From positions 372,001 through 436,000 of the forward strand of contig NZ_FRAX01000001.1 in NCBI RefSeq assembly GCF_900142465.1: a stretch of DNA of 64,000 bases, read 5' to 3'. A program made the translations under genes and the position numbers. Each line of letters starts with the position of its first letter. Position 1 is the stretch's first letter. The notes beneath the pieces are model-generated. The model did no database searches. It had not been told where the DNA came from and saw only the letters and a program-made list of their open reading frames with translations. This DNA is from Fibrobacter sp. UWH6. Its GTDB lineage: Bacteria; Fibrobacterota; Fibrobacteria; Fibrobacterales; Fibrobacteraceae. Below are positions 1-11,353 of this stretch, one piece after another.

Positions 1-1381
1 ACAAGTAGGGACTGAAAACTCGGAAGTCTTCAAGCTTGTCGAATGCATTGGCGAAGGTGGCCAGGGTGCGGTCTACACGACGCAAAGAAAGAACCTTCTT
101 GTCAAACTCAGCATCGCCAAGGAAGGTGCCGATGACGTCATCAAGGCAAAGTATAGGCGCTATGGTTCGTTAAGGGGTCGTCGCGACCTTCCGCAGTATC
201 TGGCAAAACCCCTCAGTGAAATCACCCCCGTAGTCAAGGATGGATTCATCGTCTATGGATACGTAATGGAAATGATGGAGGACATGGTTTCGCTCCATTC
301 CCTCTTCCGCAAGAATGGCGAAGACCCCACGGCATATATAAGCCGAATGGGTGGTATCCAGCGGATGTACGTCATCCTTCGAAAGATTGCCGAAATACTG
401 GACGGCATCCACTCTATCGGCTATGTATACGGCGACCTGAATCCCAATAACGTCTTCATCTCGAAGGACCCTGCATATACCGAGGTTCAGCTGATCGACT
501 GCGACAACCTGATGGTTGCCGCGGACTATGATGGGTTCATCTATTACCCAGGATACGGCGCTCCGGAAATACTCAAGGGAATGGCAAGGAACAGTTCCAT
601 TACCGATTCCTGGAGCTATGCTGTCCTTGCTTTCTACACCCTTCGACAGGCAATGCCTTTCCAGGGCAAGATGGTCATGGACGCAGGGACGATGGAACTA
701 TCTCAGCTGGAGCGTAAGGCCGAAGCAGGAGAACTACCCTTCATCGACGAAGACCAGAACAATGCCGCCGCACATGCTCTGCCCAAGGATGTGATGGAAT
801 CCCCGGCCTTGCAGCAGTTGTTCCAGAAGGCATTTGGCAATGACTCGTCACTGAGTTCGCGCCCCGTACTCCAGGAGTGGATCGCCGAGTTCCAGAACTG
901 GGAGTATCGGTTTGTAAAGTGCGCCAACAAGACCTGCGGCTCTGTTTACCTGAAATACAAGGGAGTTGACAAGTGTCCATTTTGCGACGAGAAATCCATC
1001 GAGCCATTCGTCGTTTGTCGCAAGATGATTCGACACGACTTATCCTGCAGCCAGTATGACGCCCCAATTATTGCGGTCGACTCGCCCGTGAAAGTCGAAA
1101 TTTCCATTTCCGAATACAGGATGCTTCAACTGGAAGTGAGGCTGGACGCCAATTCGAAGAAAGTCTATATCAAGCAGCTTGGCGACGAGGACATTACGGT
1201 TGAATGGTCAATCAAAGCCATTGGTGCGGGAAAGAAGGTCGTTCTACGTCCCAACACCCCAATCGGTCTTTCCGTCCTAAACAAGGAAGACAACTTCCTT
1301 CAGTTTGCTGAGTACGCCTTCTGCGAAGGCAATAAGGCTCGGGGAGTTCTAAGGTTCACCTGCGGAGGCCTCAATGGTTAA
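1..1381 (+). CDS. Ser/Thr protein kinase-like protein of a defence operon (5' partial)
   Basis: The reading frame is open from base 2 of the window, so the gene starts outside it; the first internal ATG (266) is not the true start because the glycine-rich loop GEGGQGAVY is encoded upstream of it at about 50-76. The catalytic loop reads YVYGDLNPNN and the metal-binding position reads LIDCDN in place of DFG, a pattern seen in atypical bacterial kinases. After the kinase domain comes a zinc-ribbon-like CANKTCGSVY...CPFC segment and then a roughly 110-residue beta-rich tail. Its stop overlaps the helicase start by 8 bases, so the two are translationally coupled. Known of the family: TerY-P modules combine a vWA protein, a PP2C phosphatase and such a kinase. 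Inferred: it regulates the downstream helicase/McrBC-like proteins by phosphorylation. Confidence 0.8.
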   Translation, partial: QVGTENSEVFKLVECIGEGGQGAVYTTQRKNLLVKLSIAKEGADDVIKAKYRRYGSLRGRRDLPQYLAKPLSEITPVVKDGFIVYGYVMEMMEDMVSLHSLFRKNGEDPTAYISRMGGIQRMYVILRKIAEILDGIHSIGYVYGDLNPNNVFISKDPAYTEVQLIDCDNLMVAADYDGFIYYPGYGAPEILKGMARNSSITDSWSYAVLAFYTLRQAMPFQGKMVMDAGTMELSQLERKAEAGELPFIDEDQNNAAAHALPKDVMESPALQQLFQKAFGNDSSLSSRPVLQEWIAEFQNWEYRFVKCANKTCGSVYLKYKGVDKCPFCDEKSIEPFVVCRKMIRHDLSCSQYDAPIIAVDSPVKVEISISEYRMLQLEVRLDANSKKVYIKQLGDEDITVEWSIKAIGAGKKVVLRPNTPIGLSVLNKEDNFLQFAEYAFCEGNKARGVLRFTCGGLNG

Positions 1382-4300
1382 CAGCGAACTCTACAACATA
1401 GCCTGTTCCTGCGCGAACGAATCCTGCTACACTGACATCGTCTTTGACGGAGATTCGATCCAGCTAAAAAAGTTCGACATCTTGGAATACACGTCAAGTG
1501 GCGCCTTTGTCAATATCCGTGCACGGGACATAGCTCTGTGGCCGGAATCGACAAACGAGACTTTCAATGCAGATTCGCTTTACATCGTCGAATCAGCCGA
1601 GTCGGTCAATGGAAAGACCAAGGTCGAGCTGATCAACTGGACTTTTGGCGGTGAAACCATCATGGGTGCGGACGAAATCGTCCAGGATGTCGTAGTGACC
1701 GATTCACTGATGGAGAGGTTGCCCAAGAACCTGCCGGTCACCAGCGTTAACACGATGGTTTCTTGGTTGAAGACTGAATTCCTATTCGATCTGGGCAATG
1801 AAGAATCCATGTTCTTCCGTGTAGTCGGTGGAAACGGTTCCCAGGATGGTTATTGGTTGGGAAGAAACTGGCTTGCTGAAGTCGTGGAAAAAAGGATCGG
1901 ACAGACGGACTATCTAGTAGTCGAACGTCTGCTGAAATCACCGCAGAAAGCGATGAACGTACAGCGAGGCTGTGCAAAGATCCGCTTCGTCGATGAAAAG
2001 AACGCTGTCGAGGCAAATCCGATATTCAAGGCTCAACTGGCCTTGAGTTCTTCCGACCCGAATTCCATCATCAACCTGTGGCAGCGCTACAACGACGCCG
2101 ACGAGGGCATCCTCAAGAGCCAACAGGAAATCTCCGGCATACTCCGCGTAGATAGCTTTTTCAAGAAGGATGGAAAGACCTGCGCCAATATCCAGAATAG
2201 TTCCGAGAGCATCGAGAATTTCAAGGGTGTGTATGAGGCACTGAAGGAAGACTACTCAATCTCTGTCAGTTCCCCATCCGTCAAGGACCCGTTGCAGGTA
2301 AAGAATGTTGTCTTCAATAGCGAACAGAGAACTATTTCCTGGGAATGGGAGGACAGGCTCCCGCACGAAAGGCTTACTGACGTCGAAATCAGGATTGATT
2401 TCAAACCGTGGGCAGTCCAGTCCAAGAGAAGAAAGGATGCTTTGGACGCAATCAAGTCCAGAAACATACCTATTCCAGCCATTACGGACTTGCTCAACAA
2501 GACCACGGTACCCACATTTGACTCCCAGCTGCCCAAGAACAGAATCCCAAGCGAATTGAGTTTGCGCAAAGCTTTCGGCGACAACAAGCCAAATGACGCC
2601 CAGCTCCGCGCACTAAAGGTTTGCCTTACGTCTCCGGATATCGCATTGGTCCAGGGGCCTCCTGGCACCGGCAAGACGAGTGTCATCCGTGCGCTCCAAA
2701 ACGTCCTCCTGACAGCCGATCCGAGGCATTCTAAGTCTGTACCCAGCATTCTTCTGACAAGCTTCCAGCATGTGGCTGTAGACAATGTCGCCTCCGGAAG
2801 CAAAATCTGGGGGTTGCCGGTATTTCGATTCTATGGCGCCAAGAAGGACAGGGAACAGGTCTTTGAAGGTCTGAAGGCCTGGCAGACAGAGACTGCCGCT
2901 GCCGTCGACAAGCAGATAGACTCCCTCCAGGCCGATGCTGAATATGCGGAGTACGAAAAGCTGATGCGGAGTCTGCGTTGTGCAAAAGACGCCGAATCCG
3001 CCTACGAGATCCGATCCCTTCTCTCGGAAGTCCTGGAACTTGCTGAGAACGAAAATTTCCTGGCTCAGGACGAGGTCCAGAACCTGCAGGAGTGGAAACG
3101 GAGATTCTCGGACAGCAAGAAGGACGAAACCCTGTACTCACTTCTCATGGGCATCCGCATTTCCCCCACCAGCTTTCAGGACGACGGCAAGGTCAACATA
3201 TCCCGTCTACTACGGTACTATGATCTACGAAGAGACGCCATCGTCTGTCCTGCACTGGAACGTGAATACGACCGACTGAAGACTTTTGCCGACTCGGAAC
3301 CGAGTCAGGCCGACTACACATGGCTACACGACCTAAGGAACGAGTGCGTGAACCAGGTGAACCCGGAGGCGATCGGGTCATTGGACAAGACCCTACTCCG
3401 GATGCTTCAGAACTATATCGACAAGACATTGATCCCGAACATCGAGGAACGAGTCAAACACAGCGACATCCATATGATGCAGGTACTCAAGGAGTACCGT
3501 GAATCCGTAGAATTTAAGTCCATCCGTAACGCAATGATGAAGTATGCAGTTACCTTCGCGGCAACGACTCAGCAGTCCAAGAGCGACGCATTCATCAATA
3601 TGCTAGGCAACGAAAATTTCGGCTTTGACTACGTGATTGTAGACGAAGCGGCTCGTGCAAATCCCCTGGACCTGTTCATCCCCATGACATTGGCCCGAAA
3701 GAAGGTCATTCTGGTCGGCGACCACAGACAGCTCCCTCAACTTGTTGAGCAGAACATCCTGGAACAGATGGAAGGCGAGACCGAAAAGTTGGCAGAGCTG
3801 AAACTGTCCATGGAGCAGTCTCTGTTCGAATCTCTTTGGAACTATCTCAAGAACGAGAGAAACGATGGCATCGAACGAACCGTGACGTTGAATGTGCAGT
3901 ACCGTATGCCCAAGAAGCTTGGCGATTTCGTCAGCAAGTATTTCTATGGAGAGGGGCAGGAAATCCTGACCAGCAAGAATCCTCTTGACTGCGAACATTT
4001 CGTATCCCGCTACAAGAAGCTTAATGGCGAAAGCAAGTGTGCAATATGGGAGGATGTGGACGGAAAGGAATCCGGACGAAAGAGCAAGCAGAACGAAGCA
4101 GAGGCTTCACGAATCGTGGAGCGCCTGAAGGAAATCGTTCAGGAGACGAATGAAACCATTGGTGTAATCGCCTCCTATAGCGCCCAGGTAAGACTCATCG
4201 AGAAGATGGTCCAGGAAACGCCCGTGCTGAGCGATGCTGTGGCCCGTCACCAACTGGAAATCGGCTCAATCGACGCTTTCCAGGGAAAGCAGTTCGACAT

Positions 4301-4502
4301 AGTCTTCTTCTCGGTGGTCAGGAACAACAGCCACTCCGGATTCGGCTTCCTTACCATGGACAACCGACTCAACGTGGCTTTCTCCCGCCAGAAGAAACTC
4401 CTTGTAGTTGTCGGCAGCCGCAATATGTTCAGCTCAGGCGAGGCGAAGGAGAATGTACCCGCCTTGAACGCATTCATTGACCTTGCGGATTCGGAGGTCT
4501 AG
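1374..4502 (+). CDS. Upf1/DNA2-like superfamily 1 helicase
   Basis: A 1042-residue protein with complete SF1 helicase motifs in its C-terminal two thirds: Walker A VQGPPGTGKT (about residue 425), Walker B VIVDEAARA (about 755), motif III VGDHRQLPQL, motif IV QYRMPKK (about 841), motif V SIDAFQGKQFD (about 964) and motif VI LNVAFSRQ (about 998). The AAA_11/AAA_12 arrangement is that of Upf1-type RNA/DNA helicases. About 320 residues separate Walker A from Walker B, more than usual, and are predicted to be helical. The N-terminal 400 residues are not recognised. The gene starts inside the kinase gene and is followed 1 base after its stop by the HEPN-like gene. Inferred role: translocase of an RNA- or DNA-targeting defence complex, comparable to the helicase component of coiled-coil McrBC systems. 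Confidence 0.88.
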   Translation: MVNSELYNIACSCANESCYTDIVFDGDSIQLKKFDILEYTSSGAFVNIRARDIALWPESTNETFNADSLYIVESAESVNGKTKVELINWTFGGETIMGADEIVQDVVVTDSLMERLPKNLPVTSVNTMVSWLKTEFLFDLGNEESMFFRVVGGNGSQDGYWLGRNWLAEVVEKRIGQTDYLVVERLLKSPQKAMNVQRGCAKIRFVDEKNAVEANPIFKAQLALSSSDPNSIINLWQRYNDADEGILKSQQEISGILRVDSFFKKDGKTCANIQNSSESIENFKGVYEALKEDYSISVSSPSVKDPLQVKNVVFNSEQRTISWEWEDRLPHERLTDVEIRIDFKPWAVQSKRRKDALDAIKSRNIPIPAITDLLNKTTVPTFDSQLPKNRIPSELSLRKAFGDNKPNDAQLRALKVCLTSPDIALVQGPPGTGKTSVIRALQNVLLTADPRHSKSVPSILLTSFQHVAVDNVASGSKIWGLPVFRFYGAKKDREQVFEGLKAWQTETAAAVDKQIDSLQADAEYAEYEKLMRSLRCAKDAESAYEIRSLLSEVLELAENENFLAQDEVQNLQEWKRRFSDSKKDETLYSLLMGIRISPTSFQDDGKVNISRLLRYYDLRRDAIVCPALEREYDRLKTFADSEPSQADYTWLHDLRNECVNQVNPEAIGSLDKTLLRMLQNYIDKTLIPNIEERVKHSDIHMMQVLKEYRESVEFKSIRNAMMKYAVTFAATTQQSKSDAFINMLGNENFGFDYVIVDEAARANPLDLFIPMTLARKKVILVGDHRQLPQLVEQNILEQMEGETEKLAELKLSMEQSLFESLWNYLKNERNDGIERTVTLNVQYRMPKKLGDFVSKYFYGEGQEILTSKNPLDCEHFVSRYKKLNGESKCAIWEDVDGKESGRKSKQNEAEASRIVERLKEIVQETNETIGVIASYSAQVRLIEKMVQETPVLSDAVARHQLEIGSIDAFQGKQFDIVFFSVVRNNSHSGFGFLTMDNRLNVAFSRQKKLLVVVGSRNMFSSGEAKENVPALNAFIDLADSEV

Positions 4503-4503
4503 T

Positions 4504-5949
4504 ATGAATATAGGTGCCTTATTCTGTAATTCTGACTATCTGCCAAAGGGACATTACGTCGCCCTTCCGGTAATCGCCTGGGACATCGTGGTTGAAAAGG
4601 CTGCAATCCCCAAGAACTACTTTTCCGAATTGATCGTAAAGATCCTATCCGTCGGTGATAAATCAATCAAGGAACTTCACGACCTTACCAATCTGGACGA
4701 GGGACTTATCCGCCATATCCTGGATCACGATCTGAAAAAGGTCGTGTCACAAACCGTAGACAAGTTGCACTTGAAGGGAAACGCGACATCCGATGTCGTC
4801 GAAATTGTAAGGTCCAGGGTGACGGTGCTGCAATCCATGGTGACGGGGCATCTGATTCCGCATCCGGTTCATCGAAACGCATTGACTGCTCTTGACTACG
4901 ACATCAACGAGAAGGGCCGTCCGAAGATCTGTGGCGGGACAAAAGGTAAGCCCAGCACAATCAGTCCCTACATGATTTTTCCAGAAAATATCCAGCTTCC
5001 CGACGTCACGGCGGACGACATCGACACGATGTGGGACGAATACGAATACAACGACAGCGAACTTGCCATATCGGACTATGACGGAATCAAGTCAGAATAT
5101 ATCGAACAGCCAGAAAGGATTGTTTCCGTGACGAGACGGTCCGTGGAAGAAAGCTCCGTAGACTATCTGCTGGTGAAGGTGAACACCTTTGCCGAAGACG
5201 AGGGCTTTGAATGCGTCGATCTCCTTGAACCAACGACAAGCATATCGATGGATTTCCTTACTAGGGAACTGAAGATGTGTATGGAAAATAACGAAGGCAT
5301 AGCCGTTTCTCTCGGCTTGAAGGAAATCGAAATACCTCTTGAACTGGTGGACGTGATTAGCAGTAAGTATCCGAACTTGACCGATGACGTGGTCAACGAG
5401 GTATGCCGATTGCTGACGCTGAAGGACAAGGTTGATGAAAATGCAAAGGACGAAGACCGTATTGACGACCTTCTGCTATCTAGATTTCAGTCACTGTATG
5501 AATGCATACTGAGAGGAAGGGATGTTATTCCTGTTTCAGATGGCGTTGGACTTTTGCTGGACGACGTTTCCAATAAACGTTTATGGCCCAAAAATGCATT
5601 GGAGAATGGTTTATTACGCAAGAACCTGTCCCTTGATGCTGATACCCTGCGTTTATTGACGCCGAAATCAGTTTGGCGTGATGTCGAAGTTGATACAGCT
5701 TCGCTAAAGTCTCTGGTACTTCGTCATCTATTGGCTTATTTCTATGCAAACCAGAATGACGCATGGTTCATAACCCAGCTGGCCAGCAAAGGTGTATTCA
5801 ATGAAACCTTGATGTTTATCTTGGATATGGCTCAGATAAGAAATACGTACCAGCATTACCATGCCAACAGGCAGAGACTACCATATAGCTACGACGAGTT
5901 TTTCGGTATCGTGGAAAAGCAACTTGAAATTATTAACGAGGTATACTAA
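4504..5949 (+). CDS. Defence operon protein with N-terminal winged-helix-like segment and C-terminal HEPN-like motif
   Basis: A 481-residue protein. The ATG at 4504 is chosen because GGAGG lies at 4494-4498 just upstream; an in-frame TTG at 4477 lies inside the helicase gene and has no such site. Residues about 35-75 resemble a winged helix (KSIKELHDLTNLDEGLIRHI). The middle is acidic and unrecognised. The C-terminal helices contain IRNTYQHYH, with R446 and H451 fitting the R-x4-6-H catalytic signature of HEPN ribonucleases, including a polar residue right after the arginine. The stop overlaps the next start (TAATG), so it is part of the operon. Family knowledge: HEPN domains act as RNases in abortive defence, and HEPN proteins occur in CoCoNuT loci. 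The HEPN assignment rests on one motif plus helical context, so it is tentative. Confidence 0.6.
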   Translation: MNIGALFCNSDYLPKGHYVALPVIAWDIVVEKAAIPKNYFSELIVKILSVGDKSIKELHDLTNLDEGLIRHILDHDLKKVVSQTVDKLHLKGNATSDVVEIVRSRVTVLQSMVTGHLIPHPVHRNALTALDYDINEKGRPKICGGTKGKPSTISPYMIFPENIQLPDVTADDIDTMWDEYEYNDSELAISDYDGIKSEYIEQPERIVSVTRRSVEESSVDYLLVKVNTFAEDEGFECVDLLEPTTSISMDFLTRELKMCMENNEGIAVSLGLKEIEIPLELVDVISSKYPNLTDDVVNEVCRLLTLKDKVDENAKDEDRIDDLLLSRFQSLYECILRGRDVIPVSDGVGLLLDDVSNKRLWPKNALENGLLRKNLSLDADTLRLLTPKSVWRDVEVDTASLKSLVLRHLLAYFYANQNDAWFITQLASKGVFNETLMFILDMAQIRNTYQHYHANRQRLPYSYDEFFGIVEKQLEIINEVY

Positions 5950-8387
5950 TGTCTAACAAAAAGAAGAAAGATGGCAAGAAAGGTAAGCTTCCTCCTCCGC
6001 CGATATCTGTATCTTCGTTAAACGATATCTTCGCCAAGAAGGCTGAAGATGTAGTCGGCTCCGCACCCAAGGATATCGAATCCGAGAACCAGCCGAGAAT
6101 CGAGGAAATCCTGGCAAATGCCACAGCCTTGGATGCTACAAAGGAGTTCTTGCCGGAAGACGATAAGAATACCCTTAACCAGCTTTTTGCCGATCTAAAG
6201 GACGCCATCGCCGCATACAAGCAGGCCAAAGGCTCTGTTGAGTCTAGGAATGCCGAACTTGACAAACGTTCGGGTACTTTGGACGACAAAGAATTCAAGC
6301 TGGAAGAAAGAAAGGAATCGTTGGATACCCGCGAGTCTTCCTTGTCCGATCGTGAAACGTCCATATCCAATCGTGAAACATCCCTGCAAGACCGCGAAAA
6401 CAGCTTGAACGCAAGGGATGAATCCATCTGCGACAGGGAACGCAACATCGATACCAGAGAGGCTGATGTCGCCAAGCGCGAAGCCGAGGCTGATGCCGGT
6501 TTCATCGCCAAGGAAGCAATCTGGAAACAGGATGCCGCGGATAAGCTCAACGAAAAACTCCAGGCTATCAGGGATGACCTGAAAACCAAACGTGACCAGT
6601 ACAATGCCGATCACGACCAACTTGTCAAGGACCAGGAGCAATGCCGTCTGGAACTAGGCGCCTACGAAGCCAAGAAGGCTGCACTCAAGGAAACCGAAGA
6701 CAGACTTGTTAAAGAACACGAAGATGCTGTTGCTGACCTGAGGGCGGAATACGACCGAATACTGAGCAGCTACGAAGCGGATTACAAGAAACAGTACGAC
6801 CGACTAGACAAAAGAAATGCTGCCTTGCAGGAGCAGATTTCCCAGTTCAGCGACATTCGTGCAGAACTCGGTGGACATTCAGCCTCGGAAATTAACAAGA
6901 TTATTTCGGGTTTGAAAGCCGAGGTGACAAGGCTGAATCTGGAAGTCCAGAACGTCGGCAGTGCGGAGTTCCAGCAGACTCTCGAAGAGCAGGTCCGGCA
7001 GTACAAGGACGAATGTGAAGCCTTGACCGTAGAGAAGAACGAACTTGACGCAAAACTTCTCCAGTTGCGAAAGAAGGTTTTCGATGTCGATGGTCTCAAG
7101 GCTCTGAACAAGACCCTCGAAACTCACAACAAGGCTTTGGCTGAGGCTCAGAACCAGCTGCAAAACAAGCTGGACGAACTGACCTCCAAGGATAACAACA
7201 AGGATATCTTCGCCGAGTTCCGCGGCATCGACGCTCGCTGTTCGACACCGTACAATGGATTCTCGCAAGCTGACGGAAACCTGAAGACATTCGTCAATGC
7301 GCTCGGCTATCAGCTGAGCCAATACACGCCGAACCTCTTCTATACTCCGCAGACCTTGCAGTTGTTTGTCGGTGGCCTCGCAATGAGCCGATTAATCCTG
7401 CTTCAGGGTATCAGCGGCACTGGCAAGACTAAGCTTGCCCAGGCATTTTCCTCCATAGTCGGTGACAATCTTGACGGTTCGCAGCCGTTCAAGGGACAGG
7501 AAAGATGCAGCTGCATCGTTCCGGTGCAGGCTGGCTGGCGCGACAACCAGGATCTACTTGGTTACTATAATGCGTTCGAAAAGAAATTCTACGAGAAACC
7601 GTTCTCGAAGGGGCTGTACGCAGCCTCCACGCCGGCCTTCAAGAATCGTCTATTCTTCCTCATCCTTGATGAAATGAACCTGTCCCACCCGGAACAATAC
7701 TTTGCCGATTTCATTTCGGCAATGGAACAGGCCAATTCAGTGAGCGACAGTTTTGAGGTCGACTTGCTGTCCGGCATTCCGAACGAGATCATGGAAGACA
7801 AGAACCGCTGGCCTCTCTTCCTCAACAAGGAACGCATTGTCGTCCCGCCGAACGTTTGGTTTATCGGTACCGCAAACCACGACGAAACGACCATGGAATT
7901 TGCGGACAAAACTTACGACCGCGCCCACGTGATGGTGATGGACAAGAATACACAGAAGCCGAACTACACCCGCGTCGGAAAGGGTGCCGCTCACTGGGCT
8001 GCATCGGACCTGAGAGAGGCTTTCGACAACGCACAGAACAGTACTGACGGCAAGAGCAAGGCTGACTGGGTAAAGACCAAACTTGACTCGCTCAAGGATG
8101 TCTTGAAGAAGGAATTCGACGTATCCTTTGGTAATCGACTTGAACGCCAAATCGGCAACTTTGTTCCAGTTGTCTGTGCCGCCGGTGGAACAAAGGAACT
8201 CGCCCTTGACCACCTCATTGCCACCAAGATTATCCGTAGAGGCAAGATTACTGGCCTGTTCGGAGTCCAGAAGGAATCGCTGGAGACCCTCCGCGACGAA
8301 ATCCTCACCGGGATTGGCCTGACGCCAAACTCTCAGACCATAAAGTTGCTTGAACAAGACATCGCCGCCAAGGAACGAGGCGCATAA
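5949..8387 (+). CDS. McrB-like AAA+ NTPase with long N-terminal coiled coil
   Basis: An 812-residue protein. After a low-complexity lysine/proline start, residues about 95-180 form an unusually regular run of heptads of the type LSDRETS, ISNRETS, LQDRENS; the coiled coil then continues in less regular form to about residue 410. The AAA+ domain follows: Walker A GISGTGKTKL (about 488), Walker B LILDEMNLSHPEQY (about 571) typical of McrB-family proteins, and a sensor segment IGTANHDETT (about 640) where McrB proteins have an MNTAD-type motif, with a DRA arginine-finger candidate close by. Known: McrB hydrolyses GTP and drives the McrC nuclease. TAATG overlaps on both sides show tight coupling. 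The N-terminal coil in place of a DNA-reading domain is the hallmark of the CoCoNuT class. Confidence 0.85.
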   Translation: MSNKKKKDGKKGKLPPPPISVSSLNDIFAKKAEDVVGSAPKDIESENQPRIEEILANATALDATKEFLPEDDKNTLNQLFADLKDAIAAYKQAKGSVESRNAELDKRSGTLDDKEFKLEERKESLDTRESSLSDRETSISNRETSLQDRENSLNARDESICDRERNIDTREADVAKREAEADAGFIAKEAIWKQDAADKLNEKLQAIRDDLKTKRDQYNADHDQLVKDQEQCRLELGAYEAKKAALKETEDRLVKEHEDAVADLRAEYDRILSSYEADYKKQYDRLDKRNAALQEQISQFSDIRAELGGHSASEINKIISGLKAEVTRLNLEVQNVGSAEFQQTLEEQVRQYKDECEALTVEKNELDAKLLQLRKKVFDVDGLKALNKTLETHNKALAEAQNQLQNKLDELTSKDNNKDIFAEFRGIDARCSTPYNGFSQADGNLKTFVNALGYQLSQYTPNLFYTPQTLQLFVGGLAMSRLILLQGISGTGKTKLAQAFSSIVGDNLDGSQPFKGQERCSCIVPVQAGWRDNQDLLGYYNAFEKKFYEKPFSKGLYAASTPAFKNRLFFLILDEMNLSHPEQYFADFISAMEQANSVSDSFEVDLLSGIPNEIMEDKNRWPLFLNKERIVVPPNVWFIGTANHDETTMEFADKTYDRAHVMVMDKNTQKPNYTRVGKGAAHWAASDLREAFDNAQNSTDGKSKADWVKTKLDSLKDVLKKEFDVSFGNRLERQIGNFVPVVCAAGGTKELALDHLIATKIIRRGKITGLFGVQKESLETLRDEILTGIGLTPNSQTIKLLEQDIAAKERGA

Positions 8388-10180
8388 TGTTTGACGTCTT
8401 CTTGCAAAGGGAAACGAACCTGGAAAGTCCCGACTGTGGGGGAATCTACTCAAAGATGGTAGATCCGGTCCACAGGGAGGACCTTCTGTTCCATTACGGC
8501 GAATCCGAAATAAAGGATTCGTCCCCTATCGCGCAGGAAATCCAGAGTGCGTTTTATCTCCTAGCCAACGACGAAGAGAGTTTCTTCTCCCTGTGTGACG
8601 ATCCGGAGAAACTTGACAGAAACAAACTCGAGAAGTATCTACAAGGCGATCCAGACAAGGTCTCCCGCAAGGATCCCCTCGTACATATGAAGGAAATTGT
8701 CTCAAGGCCGATTCTGGACCTGAAAGAGGACGAAATCAAGCAACCCACCAGCAGGGTGAAGAAGTTTGCTCCAAGGGCATTGGAGTATCTCGCAAGCCAT
8801 TCCGAAGACTGGAGAAATAAATCCTTTGTCGGTGTACATCCGCAGCAGCTGTTATCCCTCGTTCGCGAGGACAAGTGGGAAACCTACGAGAACCGTCTGC
8901 TGTACACTCTCTGCAGGACGCTGAACACCTTGATAAACCAGCGCCTAAGGGAGCTGAGAGGCGTTGACGATGCCTATGGAGAGATCCAGCGGTACTACGA
9001 GATCGTCAATTCAGTCGATCACGATGCGATGCAGAACGAGGTCGACCGGCTTCTGGTCAACTATAGCAGTGACCAAGTCGATGAGAACAGGGAGCTGCTA
9101 AGCAAGACCATTGAATTTCTTAAGCGCCTGCAACAATCCATAGGCTCCTTCTGGAACTCGCAGCTGTTCGGAAACCTGAAAAGAATTTCAAACGTCGAGG
9201 TGGACATCAACCGATTCATCATGACAAACATCTTGATGAATAACCAGCACTATCTGTACCTGCCCAAGATTCAGAAGGAAATAGTCAACTACTGTTCCAA
9301 GGAGCGATCTAAGCAGGAGAAACTTGAAGAACAGCGTCTCTTGCTGGCTAATGAAATCAGATACGTCAAACGCTGCATAGACGATTTCGCGAGCGAACGT
9401 CAGTCATTTTGGTGCCTACTAAAGCCAACGGTGACTACAAGTGAAATTGGAATTGAACTGGAGTGCGGAGGAAAGAGACTACGGTTCGCGTTCGCAACAT
9501 CCAAGCCAAGCGACGCCTACGTATCCGGACTGGACTGTGTCCACGGCGAAGATAACACTATCTCCATCCTTGTATATCCTCAGGAAACTCCCTACCTGGA
9601 TGGGAACGACGATAGCCTCGCAAAGCTTTCATCGATGTTCGGTAGCCAACTACCGCAATGGGGTACATTCTCGTTGCTCGCCATATCCCCGCAGTCCGTT
9701 TTTTCCAAGCTACTGATTCAGCGGATACTGCTTCAGTGGGCGTGGCCTATGTTTATTGCAGGCTATCCTGTAAAGATACCGCAAAACCGATTCATCAAGG
9801 AATTTGTCATCGGAGACAATCTCTTCAACCAGTATGATGTATCCAGGTTCGAAACCGCAGTCAATCAGAAAGAGCATTCAGATAGAATCAAGAAGAACGA
9901 CCTCCCGACCTTCCGTAAGGCACGCGACGAGGAAATCAAGGTGCTACAGAACGCAAACGAGCTGATTGCCGTCGCACAGCAATGCCCTTGCTGTGGACAG
10001 AAAGCCGTGCTAAGTGACCATCCCACGCCACAGAACTTTATGCTGGCCTGTAGAAGCTGTGGATGTCGCTGGAGCCGTAACGACAATATTTTCAAGTGGA
10101 TCAAGGCTGAATCATATGGTTTGGAGAAGTTGTTTGGTAAATTGGAGTCTTTTGAAGTGCTCTTGACTTTAAAGGGGTGA
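8387..10180 (+). CDS. McrC/DUF2357-like protein with C-terminal zinc ribbon
   Basis: A 597-residue protein. Residues about 160-180 (DKWETYENRLLYTLCRTL) match the conserved core of DUF2357/McrC-like proteins, where an ENR segment leads into a helical bundle; a second family-like stretch is TNILMNNQHYLYLPKI (about 280). A coiled-coil region of about 40 residues follows (about 300-345). The C-terminal 70 residues carry two CxxC pairs (CPCCG and CRSCG, about 533-560) and form a probable zinc ribbon. I could not find a convincing PD-(D/E)xK catalytic signature in the region where McrC has its nuclease, so it may be inactive or too divergent for me to see. Its start overlaps the McrB-like stop (TAATG), as in mcrBC. 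Last gene of the operon; a terminator follows at 10236. Confidence 0.72.
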   Translation: MFDVFLQRETNLESPDCGGIYSKMVDPVHREDLLFHYGESEIKDSSPIAQEIQSAFYLLANDEESFFSLCDDPEKLDRNKLEKYLQGDPDKVSRKDPLVHMKEIVSRPILDLKEDEIKQPTSRVKKFAPRALEYLASHSEDWRNKSFVGVHPQQLLSLVREDKWETYENRLLYTLCRTLNTLINQRLRELRGVDDAYGEIQRYYEIVNSVDHDAMQNEVDRLLVNYSSDQVDENRELLSKTIEFLKRLQQSIGSFWNSQLFGNLKRISNVEVDINRFIMTNILMNNQHYLYLPKIQKEIVNYCSKERSKQEKLEEQRLLLANEIRYVKRCIDDFASERQSFWCLLKPTVTTSEIGIELECGGKRLRFAFATSKPSDAYVSGLDCVHGEDNTISILVYPQETPYLDGNDDSLAKLSSMFGSQLPQWGTFSLLAISPQSVFSKLLIQRILLQWAWPMFIAGYPVKIPQNRFIKEFVIGDNLFNQYDVSRFETAVNQKEHSDRIKKNDLPTFRKARDEEIKVLQNANELIAVAQQCPCCGQKAVLSDHPTPQNFMLACRSCGCRWSRNDNIFKWIKAESYGLEKLFGKLESFEVLLTLKG

Positions 10181-10291: not shown

Positions 10292-11353
10292 TTAAAGTTC
10301 AGGAATACTTTCCACGGCTTTTTTCTTACCCTCGTCAAGAACTTTGACGTAAACCTGGGTTGTTTTGACATCGGTGTGTCCTAGAATTTTACTGACCGTG
10401 AATAAATCCGCTCCGTGGCTTAGGGCTAGGGTTGCGAATGTATGACGTCCTAGGTGGAAGGTAATGTCTTTTCCCAATGCCTTTTGACTCCAGCGTTTTA
10501 GGACTTCATTTACCGAATTGTTGGATCCTAGTGGGAAATAGAGGTTATTTTTCTCTGGGGTTTTGGGGAGGTATTTCTTTGCGTTTTTGCTTATTGGGAC
10601 GCGGACGGGGATACTGGTCTTGTATTGTCGTAAGACAACTTGGTTGTCTTCAATCATTTCCGGACATAGGCGTTTGATGTCCGAAAATCTGATCCCTGTG
10701 AAGCAGGAGAACAGGAAGGCGTTCTTTATTCTCGGTACGGAGCAGGGGGTGTCTATTAGCGCTTTTAGCTGCTCTAGGGAGAGGTAATCCAGCATCGTTG
10801 TAAGAAATCTGGGTGAAAGACCCGAAAAATCGGGCATTTGGGGGATGATTCCTTCTAAAACGGCTTTATGTACGTAGGTTTTTAGTTGAGAACTGGCTAT
10901 GGCAATAGAATTCTGCTGTAGTCCTAATTCTTCGTGGAGATGATTGATGAAACCCTGCATGAATTCTCTGTCAATTCCCGCGACGAGAACGTTTGGACGA
11001 TAGGCGATAACCTTTCGTGCACAGTCCTGCATATTGAACTTGGTGCGTGGATTCTTGTATTCTTTTAATACTTTGGGGAAGTAATCGGCGAATAATGTTC
11101 TTTGAGGACGGGGAGGAAGTTTGATCCCTGCTTCCGCCATGTTCAATTCGGATTCTCGCTTGTCTCGAAGGGCCTTTCCCAGTCGCCAGGCTTCTTGGTT
11201 TTTGACCTTGTCTGCCGCGGTTTTTTCGGGGACCAAGAAAATCTGAAGGTTCTCTCTTATGCGTTTTCCGTCTACTCGGTAATCAAGGTACAGAGACTTG
11301 CCGCCAGTCCTTAATGGACGGGCAGATAGTGTGATTCTATCGCCGTTTTGCAT
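10292..11353 (-). CDS. Tyrosine recombinase / integrase
   Basis: A 353-residue site-specific recombinase with an N-terminal arm-binding-type beta segment, a SAM-like core-binding domain (about 85-185) and a full C-terminal catalytic domain. All key residues are visible: R222 (GIRFSD), H300-x-x-R303 (HLGRH), H326 (ILGHTD) and the nucleophile Y335 (TTQVYVKV). The layout is that of the Bacteroides-type phage/transposon integrase family. It is intact, points towards the defence operon and is separated from it by a shared terminator region. Its upstream side holds short direct repeats (11363-11385 and 11656-11687) that could be arm-type binding sites. Inferred: it moved the element carrying the kinase-helicase-McrBC-like operon. 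Confidence 0.92.
   Translation of the reverse strand: MQNGDRITLSARPLRTGGKSLYLDYRVDGKRIRENLQIFLVPEKTAADKVKNQEAWRLGKALRDKRESELNMAEAGIKLPPRPQRTLFADYFPKVLKEYKNPRTKFNMQDCARKVIAYRPNVLVAGIDREFMQGFINHLHEELGLQQNSIAIASSQLKTYVHKAVLEGIIPQMPDFSGLSPRFLTTMLDYLSLEQLKALIDTPCSVPRIKNAFLFSCFTGIRFSDIKRLCPEMIEDNQVVLRQYKTSIPVRVPISKNAKKYLPKTPEKNNLYFPLGSNNSVNEVLKRWSQKALGKDITFHLGRHTFATLALSHGADLFTVSKILGHTDVKTTQVYVKVLDEGKKKAVESIPEL

Follow-up and report, generated by a model that had tools for sequence, protein, structure and literature searches.

The gene located at positions 4504-5949 (+ strand) of the window, i.e., the stretch of 64,000 nucleotides of the Fibrobacter sp. UWH6 genome that was analysed (G000:C1:372001-436000 of a 3.92 Mb genome), most probably encodes CnuE, the effector of a Type II CoCoNuT (coiled-coil nuclease tandem) defence operon, composed of an N-terminal winged-helix part linked to a C-terminal HEPN endoribonuclease. 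The occurrence of a HEPN-type RNase site in the helical C-terminal domain of this CnuE is well supported, and the operon that harbours the gene matches the Type II CoCoNuT. A HEPN domain in CnuE has already been predicted in print for the Type II CoCoNuT (Bell et al. 2024 eLife, PMC11090510), and the Fibrobacter operon represents a further, well-supported example of this published, computationally described system. No experimental work on Cnu proteins was found in the open literature searched, where the CoCoNuTs are described by computation only.

Operon organization and assignment to the Type II CoCoNuT

The window was examined together with 16 kb across its left edge. The operon consists of seven closely packed genes, all located on one strand, in the order VWA (236 aa), PP2C (241 aa), kinase (473 aa), helicase (1042 aa), CnuE (481 aa), GTPase (812 aa) and McrC-like protein (597 aa). 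The first three genes form a TerY-P triad directly upstream of cnuH: the VWA and PP2C genes, recognized by profile matches, and the start of the third gene are situated beyond the left edge of the window (L002 12517-15381), and this third gene (1-1381, + strand) encodes a Ser/Thr kinase (Pkinase, E 2e-13) whose C-terminal Cys pairs are zinc-ribbon-like. The cnuH homologue (1374-4502, + strand) encodes a SF1 UPF1/IGHMBP2-like helicase, identified by Pfam AAA_11/AAA_12 and by the TIGR00376 and MkoA profiles, and the cnuE homologue occupies, here as in 30 further loci, the position between the helicase and the McrB genes. According to its motifs, its heptads and the PDC-M26A profile, the cnuB homologue (5949-8387, + strand) combines an N-terminal coiled coil and a McrB-like GTPase with an NxD motif (TANHDE). 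The Walker A (GISGTGKT), the Walker B (LDEMN) and the N-H-D-E residues of CnuB are invariant in 4/4 proteins. At residues 85-140 and 113-168, its heptad signal is stronger than in any of 300 shuffles; heptad periodicity occurs in parts of residues 57-420, weaker and patchy up to residue ~420 and absent in several of the sequence windows. The cnuC homologue (8387-10180, + strand) possesses the McrC N-terminal DUF2357 (E 0.00079, below the cut-off) and two C-x-x-C zinc pairs, whose residues C533, C536, C555 and C558 are kept in 33-34 of 36 homologues.

In the published description, the Type II CoCoNuT gene set comprises TerY-P, CnuH, CnuE, CnuB and CnuC, TerY-P being a common, non-core part (PMC11090510). 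The same paper depicts CnuH as a UPF1-like helicase with SmpB-like OB, RelE-like RTL and stalk/OB domains, CnuE as a winged-helix part plus one HEPN with an RxxxxH motif, CnuB as a coiled coil and a GTPase with NxD rather than NxxD, usually then E or D, and CnuC as DUF2357, an inactivated PD-(D/E)xK nuclease and a zinc ribbon in which CPxC occurs two or three times. The Fibrobacter operon shares with this system its gene order, a GTPase with NxD followed by E, one conserved C-terminal RxxxxH in CnuE, a McrC devoid of a nuclease motif, two zinc pairs and BREX genes nearby. A coiled coil on the GTPase (by heptad periodicity), a UPF1-like helicase upstream and TerY-P also correspond to Type II traits, and CnuE displays wHTH-like matches in addition to its single conserved RxxxxH, the HEPN fold itself being suggested by the models. 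The name Fibrobacter does not occur in the main text of PMC11090510, and the Fibrobacter CnuE is only 13-21% identical to 22 named CnuE relatives.

Unlike the gene set of the Type II CoCoNuT paper, no RtcR-like CARF regulator was found in the Fibrobacter genome. Two of the three relatives possess, adjacent to the operon, a divergent gene for a sigma-54 activator (L007:490-2070, - strand, and L008:14128-15684, + strand); both activators exhibit a weak Csm6 CARF match (E ~1e-4, below the cut-off) and fit the RtcR-like regulators of PMC11090510. When the Fibrobacter genome was searched with the relatives' activator, sigma-54 regions alone were returned (query residues 218-446), and the CARF part had no counterpart.

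Left of the window, a BREX-like cluster occurs upstream of the operon on the same strand (L009:5025-13944 and L002:7-8512). To the left of the operon, BrxL was identified by profile, as was a GmrSD Type IV enzyme, and PglZ-, PglX- and BrxC-like ORFs were recognized by eye only. These surroundings fit a defence island, in agreement with the BREX association published for CoCoNuTs. Tyrosine recombinases are located on both sides of the operon, on its left (L002:11160-12155, + strand) and on its 3' side (window 10292-11353, - strand), which gives a hint of a mobile island.

The helicase and the CnuE family also show affinities with Mokosh. CnuH matches the PADLOC MkoA profiles (E 1.2e-88), and 19 of the 23 CnuE family members match the MkoB profile PDLC03922, the window CnuE being without an MkoB match. 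Taken together, the MkoA match of CnuH and the MkoB matches of the CnuE relatives suggest a shared helicase/wHTH-effector module. Mokosh is not known to possess a McrBC or TerY-P part. The name Mokosh is absent from the main text of the CoCoNuT paper (PMC11090510).

The RxxxxH motif of CnuE and its conservation

The C-terminal end of the 481-aa protein, as translated from 4504-5949 (+ strand), reads AQIRNTYQHYHANRQRLPYSYDEFFGIVEKQLEIINEVY. The string IRNTYQHYH, in the context AQIRNTYQHYH, occurs near this C-terminus and contains the RxxxxH motif R446-N-T-Y-Q-H451 (5839-5856, + strand; R446 codon 5839-5841, H451 codon 5854-5856), with R-x4-H spacing and N447 following R446. The earlier note had singled out R446 and H451 in this string, between 5800 and 5949, as a R-x4-6-H signature with a polar residue after Arg in a helical C-terminus. 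Its numbering was exact and both codons lie within these limits, the spacing and N447 agree with the signature, and the AlphaFold helices 432-451 and 463-480 locate the motif at a helix end. Taken alone, such a motif would constitute weak evidence for a HEPN, as far as the sequence goes: among 5,000 shuffles of CnuE, R-polar-x3-5-H occurred in 50.5% and R[ND]x3H in 6.8%, frequencies that rule out the motif alone as a proof of HEPN. A second R-x4-H string occurs in CnuE at R70 and is not conserved.

The gene is present in 2 genomes among 100 relatives searched and in 4 genomes among 167 of the phylum, the own genome being counted in both cases, and the same seven genes occur in the same order in all four phylum genomes with the gene. 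R446, N447, H451 and the acid are invariant in 4/4 proteins of this lineage (window and close relatives, 43-53% identity). More distant operons were collected with CnuB, a GTPase more conserved than CnuE, which was searched against genome_contigs and gave 41 loci from named genomes; 27 of these were usable, with the helicase, the intervening gene and the GTPase all present, and 14 were left out for want of an identifiable CnuH beside CnuB or of an intervening gene. The resulting set of 31 operons consists of the window, its three close relatives and the 27 operons from named genomes, in all of which the intervening gene was picked by position, its sequence being disregarded. R and H are kept at the aligned positions in 24 of the 31 operons. 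The motif is lost in 7, including an Acidimicrobiales bin and four poorly aligning Actinobacteria, which implies that not all systems of this kind depend on RNase activity. A Gly replaces the Arg of the motif in L020 and L042, and the Arg is kept and the His absent in L039.

In a 23-row alignment of the window CnuE with 22 proteins from several phyla (13-21% identity to the window CnuE), from which the three close relatives and L032, L034, L037, L038 and L039 (motif missing or C-terminus unaligned) are left out, H451 is found in 23/23 rows, E333 in 23/23, R446 in 21/23 and N or D at 447 in 22/23. Over the entire length of CnuE, few residues are as well conserved in this alignment as R446 and H451. 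It is because of this conservation, in the 4/4 close relatives as well as in the 23 rows, that the C-terminal motif lies beyond chance; R446 and H451, whose lack of conservation in homologues would have spoken against a HEPN according to the earlier note, are conserved among close relatives, operons and aligned rows alike. The acidic motif E333-C-I-L-R337 (5500-5514, + strand) corresponds to Ex3[KR], which is complete in 14/23 rows, the window among them. This element has been described beside Rx4-6H for many HEPN domains (Anantharaman et al. 2013, PMC3710099).

The four actinobacterial CnuE (L032:6552-7775, L034:6571-7788, L037:6540-7754 and L038:6534-7796) are shorter proteins of 405-421 aa, devoid of aligned R and H and thus of an aligned RxxxxH. 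An E-rich helix similar to that of E333 seems, by eye, to be retained, and a Pfam search of these four proteins found no family. A loss of RNase activity is possible in the actinobacterial CnuE. At another locus (L041:6985-9858), an open frame of 958 aa fuses the first half of CnuH with the GTPase end of CnuB. CnuE looks as though deleted from between the two, and the frame corresponds either to a deletion or to an assembly artefact.

Fold and profile comparisons of the C-terminal domain

The predicted HEPN RNase domain extends over residues 277-481 of CnuE (5332-5946, + strand), on the evidence of the model, of VIA-align and of a profile match to other CnuE. The AlphaFold model of the full-length CnuE has a pLDDT of 66.7, and the AF2 model of residues 277-481, for which the 23-row alignment minus L020 and L042 (both without R446) served as input, a pLDDT of 80.0 and a pTM of 0.78. 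On the N-terminal side, wHTH-like folds were matched within residues 31-105 by structural re-alignment of the full-length model, and the Pfam wHTH PF24409 occurs in 16 of the 23 CnuE family members, the window CnuE being without a match.

Foldseek gave no E < 0.001 with either the full-length or the domain model (best E 0.2 and 1.4, respectively). When the Foldseek candidates were re-aligned with VIA, RnlA, a single protein, came first for the full-length model and filled 5 of the 6 leading rows (best row: model residues 275-479, Z 7.3, rmsd 4.1 Å, 134 residues). For the domain model, the HepT HEPN toxins of HEPN-MNT modules account for 6 of the top 7 rows (top row: Z 8.6, rmsd 3.6 Å, 123 residues; leading rows Z 8.2-8.6), with designed bundles and FAT domains next in the list, at Z 7.4 and below, and Csm6' at rank 14. 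The CnuE values of 7.3 and 8.6 lie under the VIA threshold for helical bundles (~Z 13), and since the designed bundles and FAT domains follow close behind, the models suggest, short of proof, that the C-terminal domain of CnuE is a HEPN-type helical bundle. The earlier note had proposed to compare an AlphaFold model with HEPN folds by Foldseek and had taken a C-terminus other than a four-helix HEPN bundle as a refutation. No such refutation was obtained: the modelled domain is a helical bundle with HEPN RNases as its best solved matches, at the top of the VIA lists, although their Z is under the bundle level and the Foldseek scores are non-significant.

The closest solved folds belong to HepT toxins (PDB codes 6m6u, 5yep, 7bxo and 7ae9; Z 8.6 to 7.6, rmsd 3.2-3.8 Å, 121-123 residues), and the HEPN of RnlA / RNase LS (PDB codes 6y2r and 4i8o) provides the top structural matches of the full-length CnuE model. 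HepT carries its RxxxxH near the C-terminus, as does CnuE. The SO_3166 motif has been mentioned in the HepT context. In contrast to CnuE, HepT is a stand-alone toxin neutralised by the MNT antitoxin, and its profile similarity to CnuE is non-significant. RnlA also differs from CnuE, by its toxin-antitoxin setting with RnlB, with no helicase or GTPase partners known. As predicted for CnuE, its HEPN domain is part of a larger protein, and RnlA has been described as active against phage (PMC7180214).

In profile-profile comparisons, the domain of the window group matches the same region of the other CnuE, with the two motifs aligned to each other (E 1.3e-05, probability 80%). The hhalign comparisons with the HepT alignment (18 rows, from 20 of 25 loci, two wrong-strand rows having been removed) and the DUF4145 alignment (9 of 10 loci) are not significant, with probabilities <=1.3% versus 0.2% for the hemerythrin control (18 rows, likewise from 20 of 25 loci with two removed); in the best local pieces, which have no statistical weight, the R..H segments of CnuE and HepT coincide and the E333 helix falls on DUF4145. 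In Pfam, a single one of the 23 CnuE family members gives a match to DUF4145, a HEPN family (E 0.0031), and the window CnuE gave nothing convincing against the Pfam, NCBIfam and PADLOC profiles (AdoMet_dc, E 0.094, below the cut-off). A sequence search of the PDB with the single CnuE and two profiles had as its best match 4dpo (E 0.018), a "conserved protein" which is not known as a HEPN. No match to CnuE was found by tblastn in the plasmid collection, the searches of genome_contigs and viral_contigs with the CnuE alignment yielded 95 and 39 pattern matches, respectively, and no relative, and the CnuB alignment found none in viral_contigs.

Predicted output of the system and alternative readings

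The earlier note had proposed that the HEPN would represent an RNA-cleaving effector besides McrC, which would make the system abortive. The HEPN-type RNase site in the C-terminal domain is supported, and the idea of an extra effector beside McrC was rejected as probably wrong, CnuC having neither a Pfam nuclease match nor, among 36 aligned homologues, a D...[D/E]xK conserved on the C-terminal side of DUF2357. Because the McrC homologue shows no nuclease motif, the HEPN is probably the only nuclease of the operon, and, as the only recognisable one, it makes RNA cleavage by CnuE the likely output of the system.

The following course of events may be proposed. The TerY-P triad would sense or relay an infection signal by phosphorylation, in line with a published hypothesis, and the CnuB GTPase would assemble with the nuclease-less CnuC on a target RNA or nucleic acid. 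CnuH would translocate and couple to CnuE through winged-helix and coiled-coil parts, a coupling for which an AF2 multimer model has been published (PMC11090510). CnuE would finally dimerise and, by the metal-independent chemistry expected from HEPN enzymes, cleave RNA to 2',3'-cyclic phosphate ends, at a site designated by conservation where the catalytic base would be H451, in concert with R446, N447 and E333. A more specific version, in which the HEPN RNase would be the sole effector of the seven-gene operon in this lineage, activated via TerY-P phosphorylation and CnuB/CnuC GTPase assembly and not by an RtcR-like CARF, i.e., a phospho-/GTP-gated RNase, is tentative and rather doubtful.

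An abortive action of the system is a guess. It is a real possibility, if somewhat less likely than not, that an active RNase would operate in a non-abortive way, by a helicase-guided selective cut of phage or stalled-ribosome RNA (tmRNA, tRNA, mRNA) which the cell survives. The UPF1-like nature of CnuH speaks for such a mode of action, in that an RNase guided by a helicase would not necessarily kill its own cell, and the targeting of viral or aberrant RNA, whose selective cutting is one of the outcomes proposed for CoCoNuTs, has been suggested with reference to the SmpB-like and OB domains of CnuH (PMC11090510). However, cell death or dormancy via the cleavage of host RNA is also argued as an outcome in section 11 of the same paper. 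A non-abortive action is a variant of the preferred reading, i.e., CnuE as an active HEPN RNase, and is compatible with it.

It is quite unlikely that CnuE is a HEPN by descent without a working RNase in Fibrobacter, a protein which would bind RNA or dimerise in a system that translocates or blocks. The absence of the motif from 7 of the 31 operons with the gene order kept, among them the four Actinobacteria with their shorter CnuE, agrees with such a role, and some HEPN domains do act without catalysis (PMC3710099), but the invariance of R, N, H and the acid in the four proteins of the lineage and the place of R and H among the most conserved CnuE residues are as expected for a used active site. 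A coincidental motif in some other helical domain with no HEPN relationship is very improbable and was rejected on the 23-row conservation. The frequency of R-polar-x3-5-H in about half of the shuffles, a structural Z within the chance range for helical bundles and the lack of a significant profile match to HEPN families would accommodate it, but E, R, [ND] and H are conserved across phyla at 13-21% identity, HEPN RNases top both structural lists, and a HEPN has already been assigned in print to this gene in operons of this type (PMC11090510).

With regard to CnuE as an active HEPN RNase, Fibrobacter offers a compact and complete operon, accompanied by three relatives of the same gene order within the same bacterial family. 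The Actinobacteria, where the motif has been lost naturally, provide a built-in comparison, and E333, R446 and H451 represent three residues where the predicted cleavage of RNA by the effector becomes directly testable.
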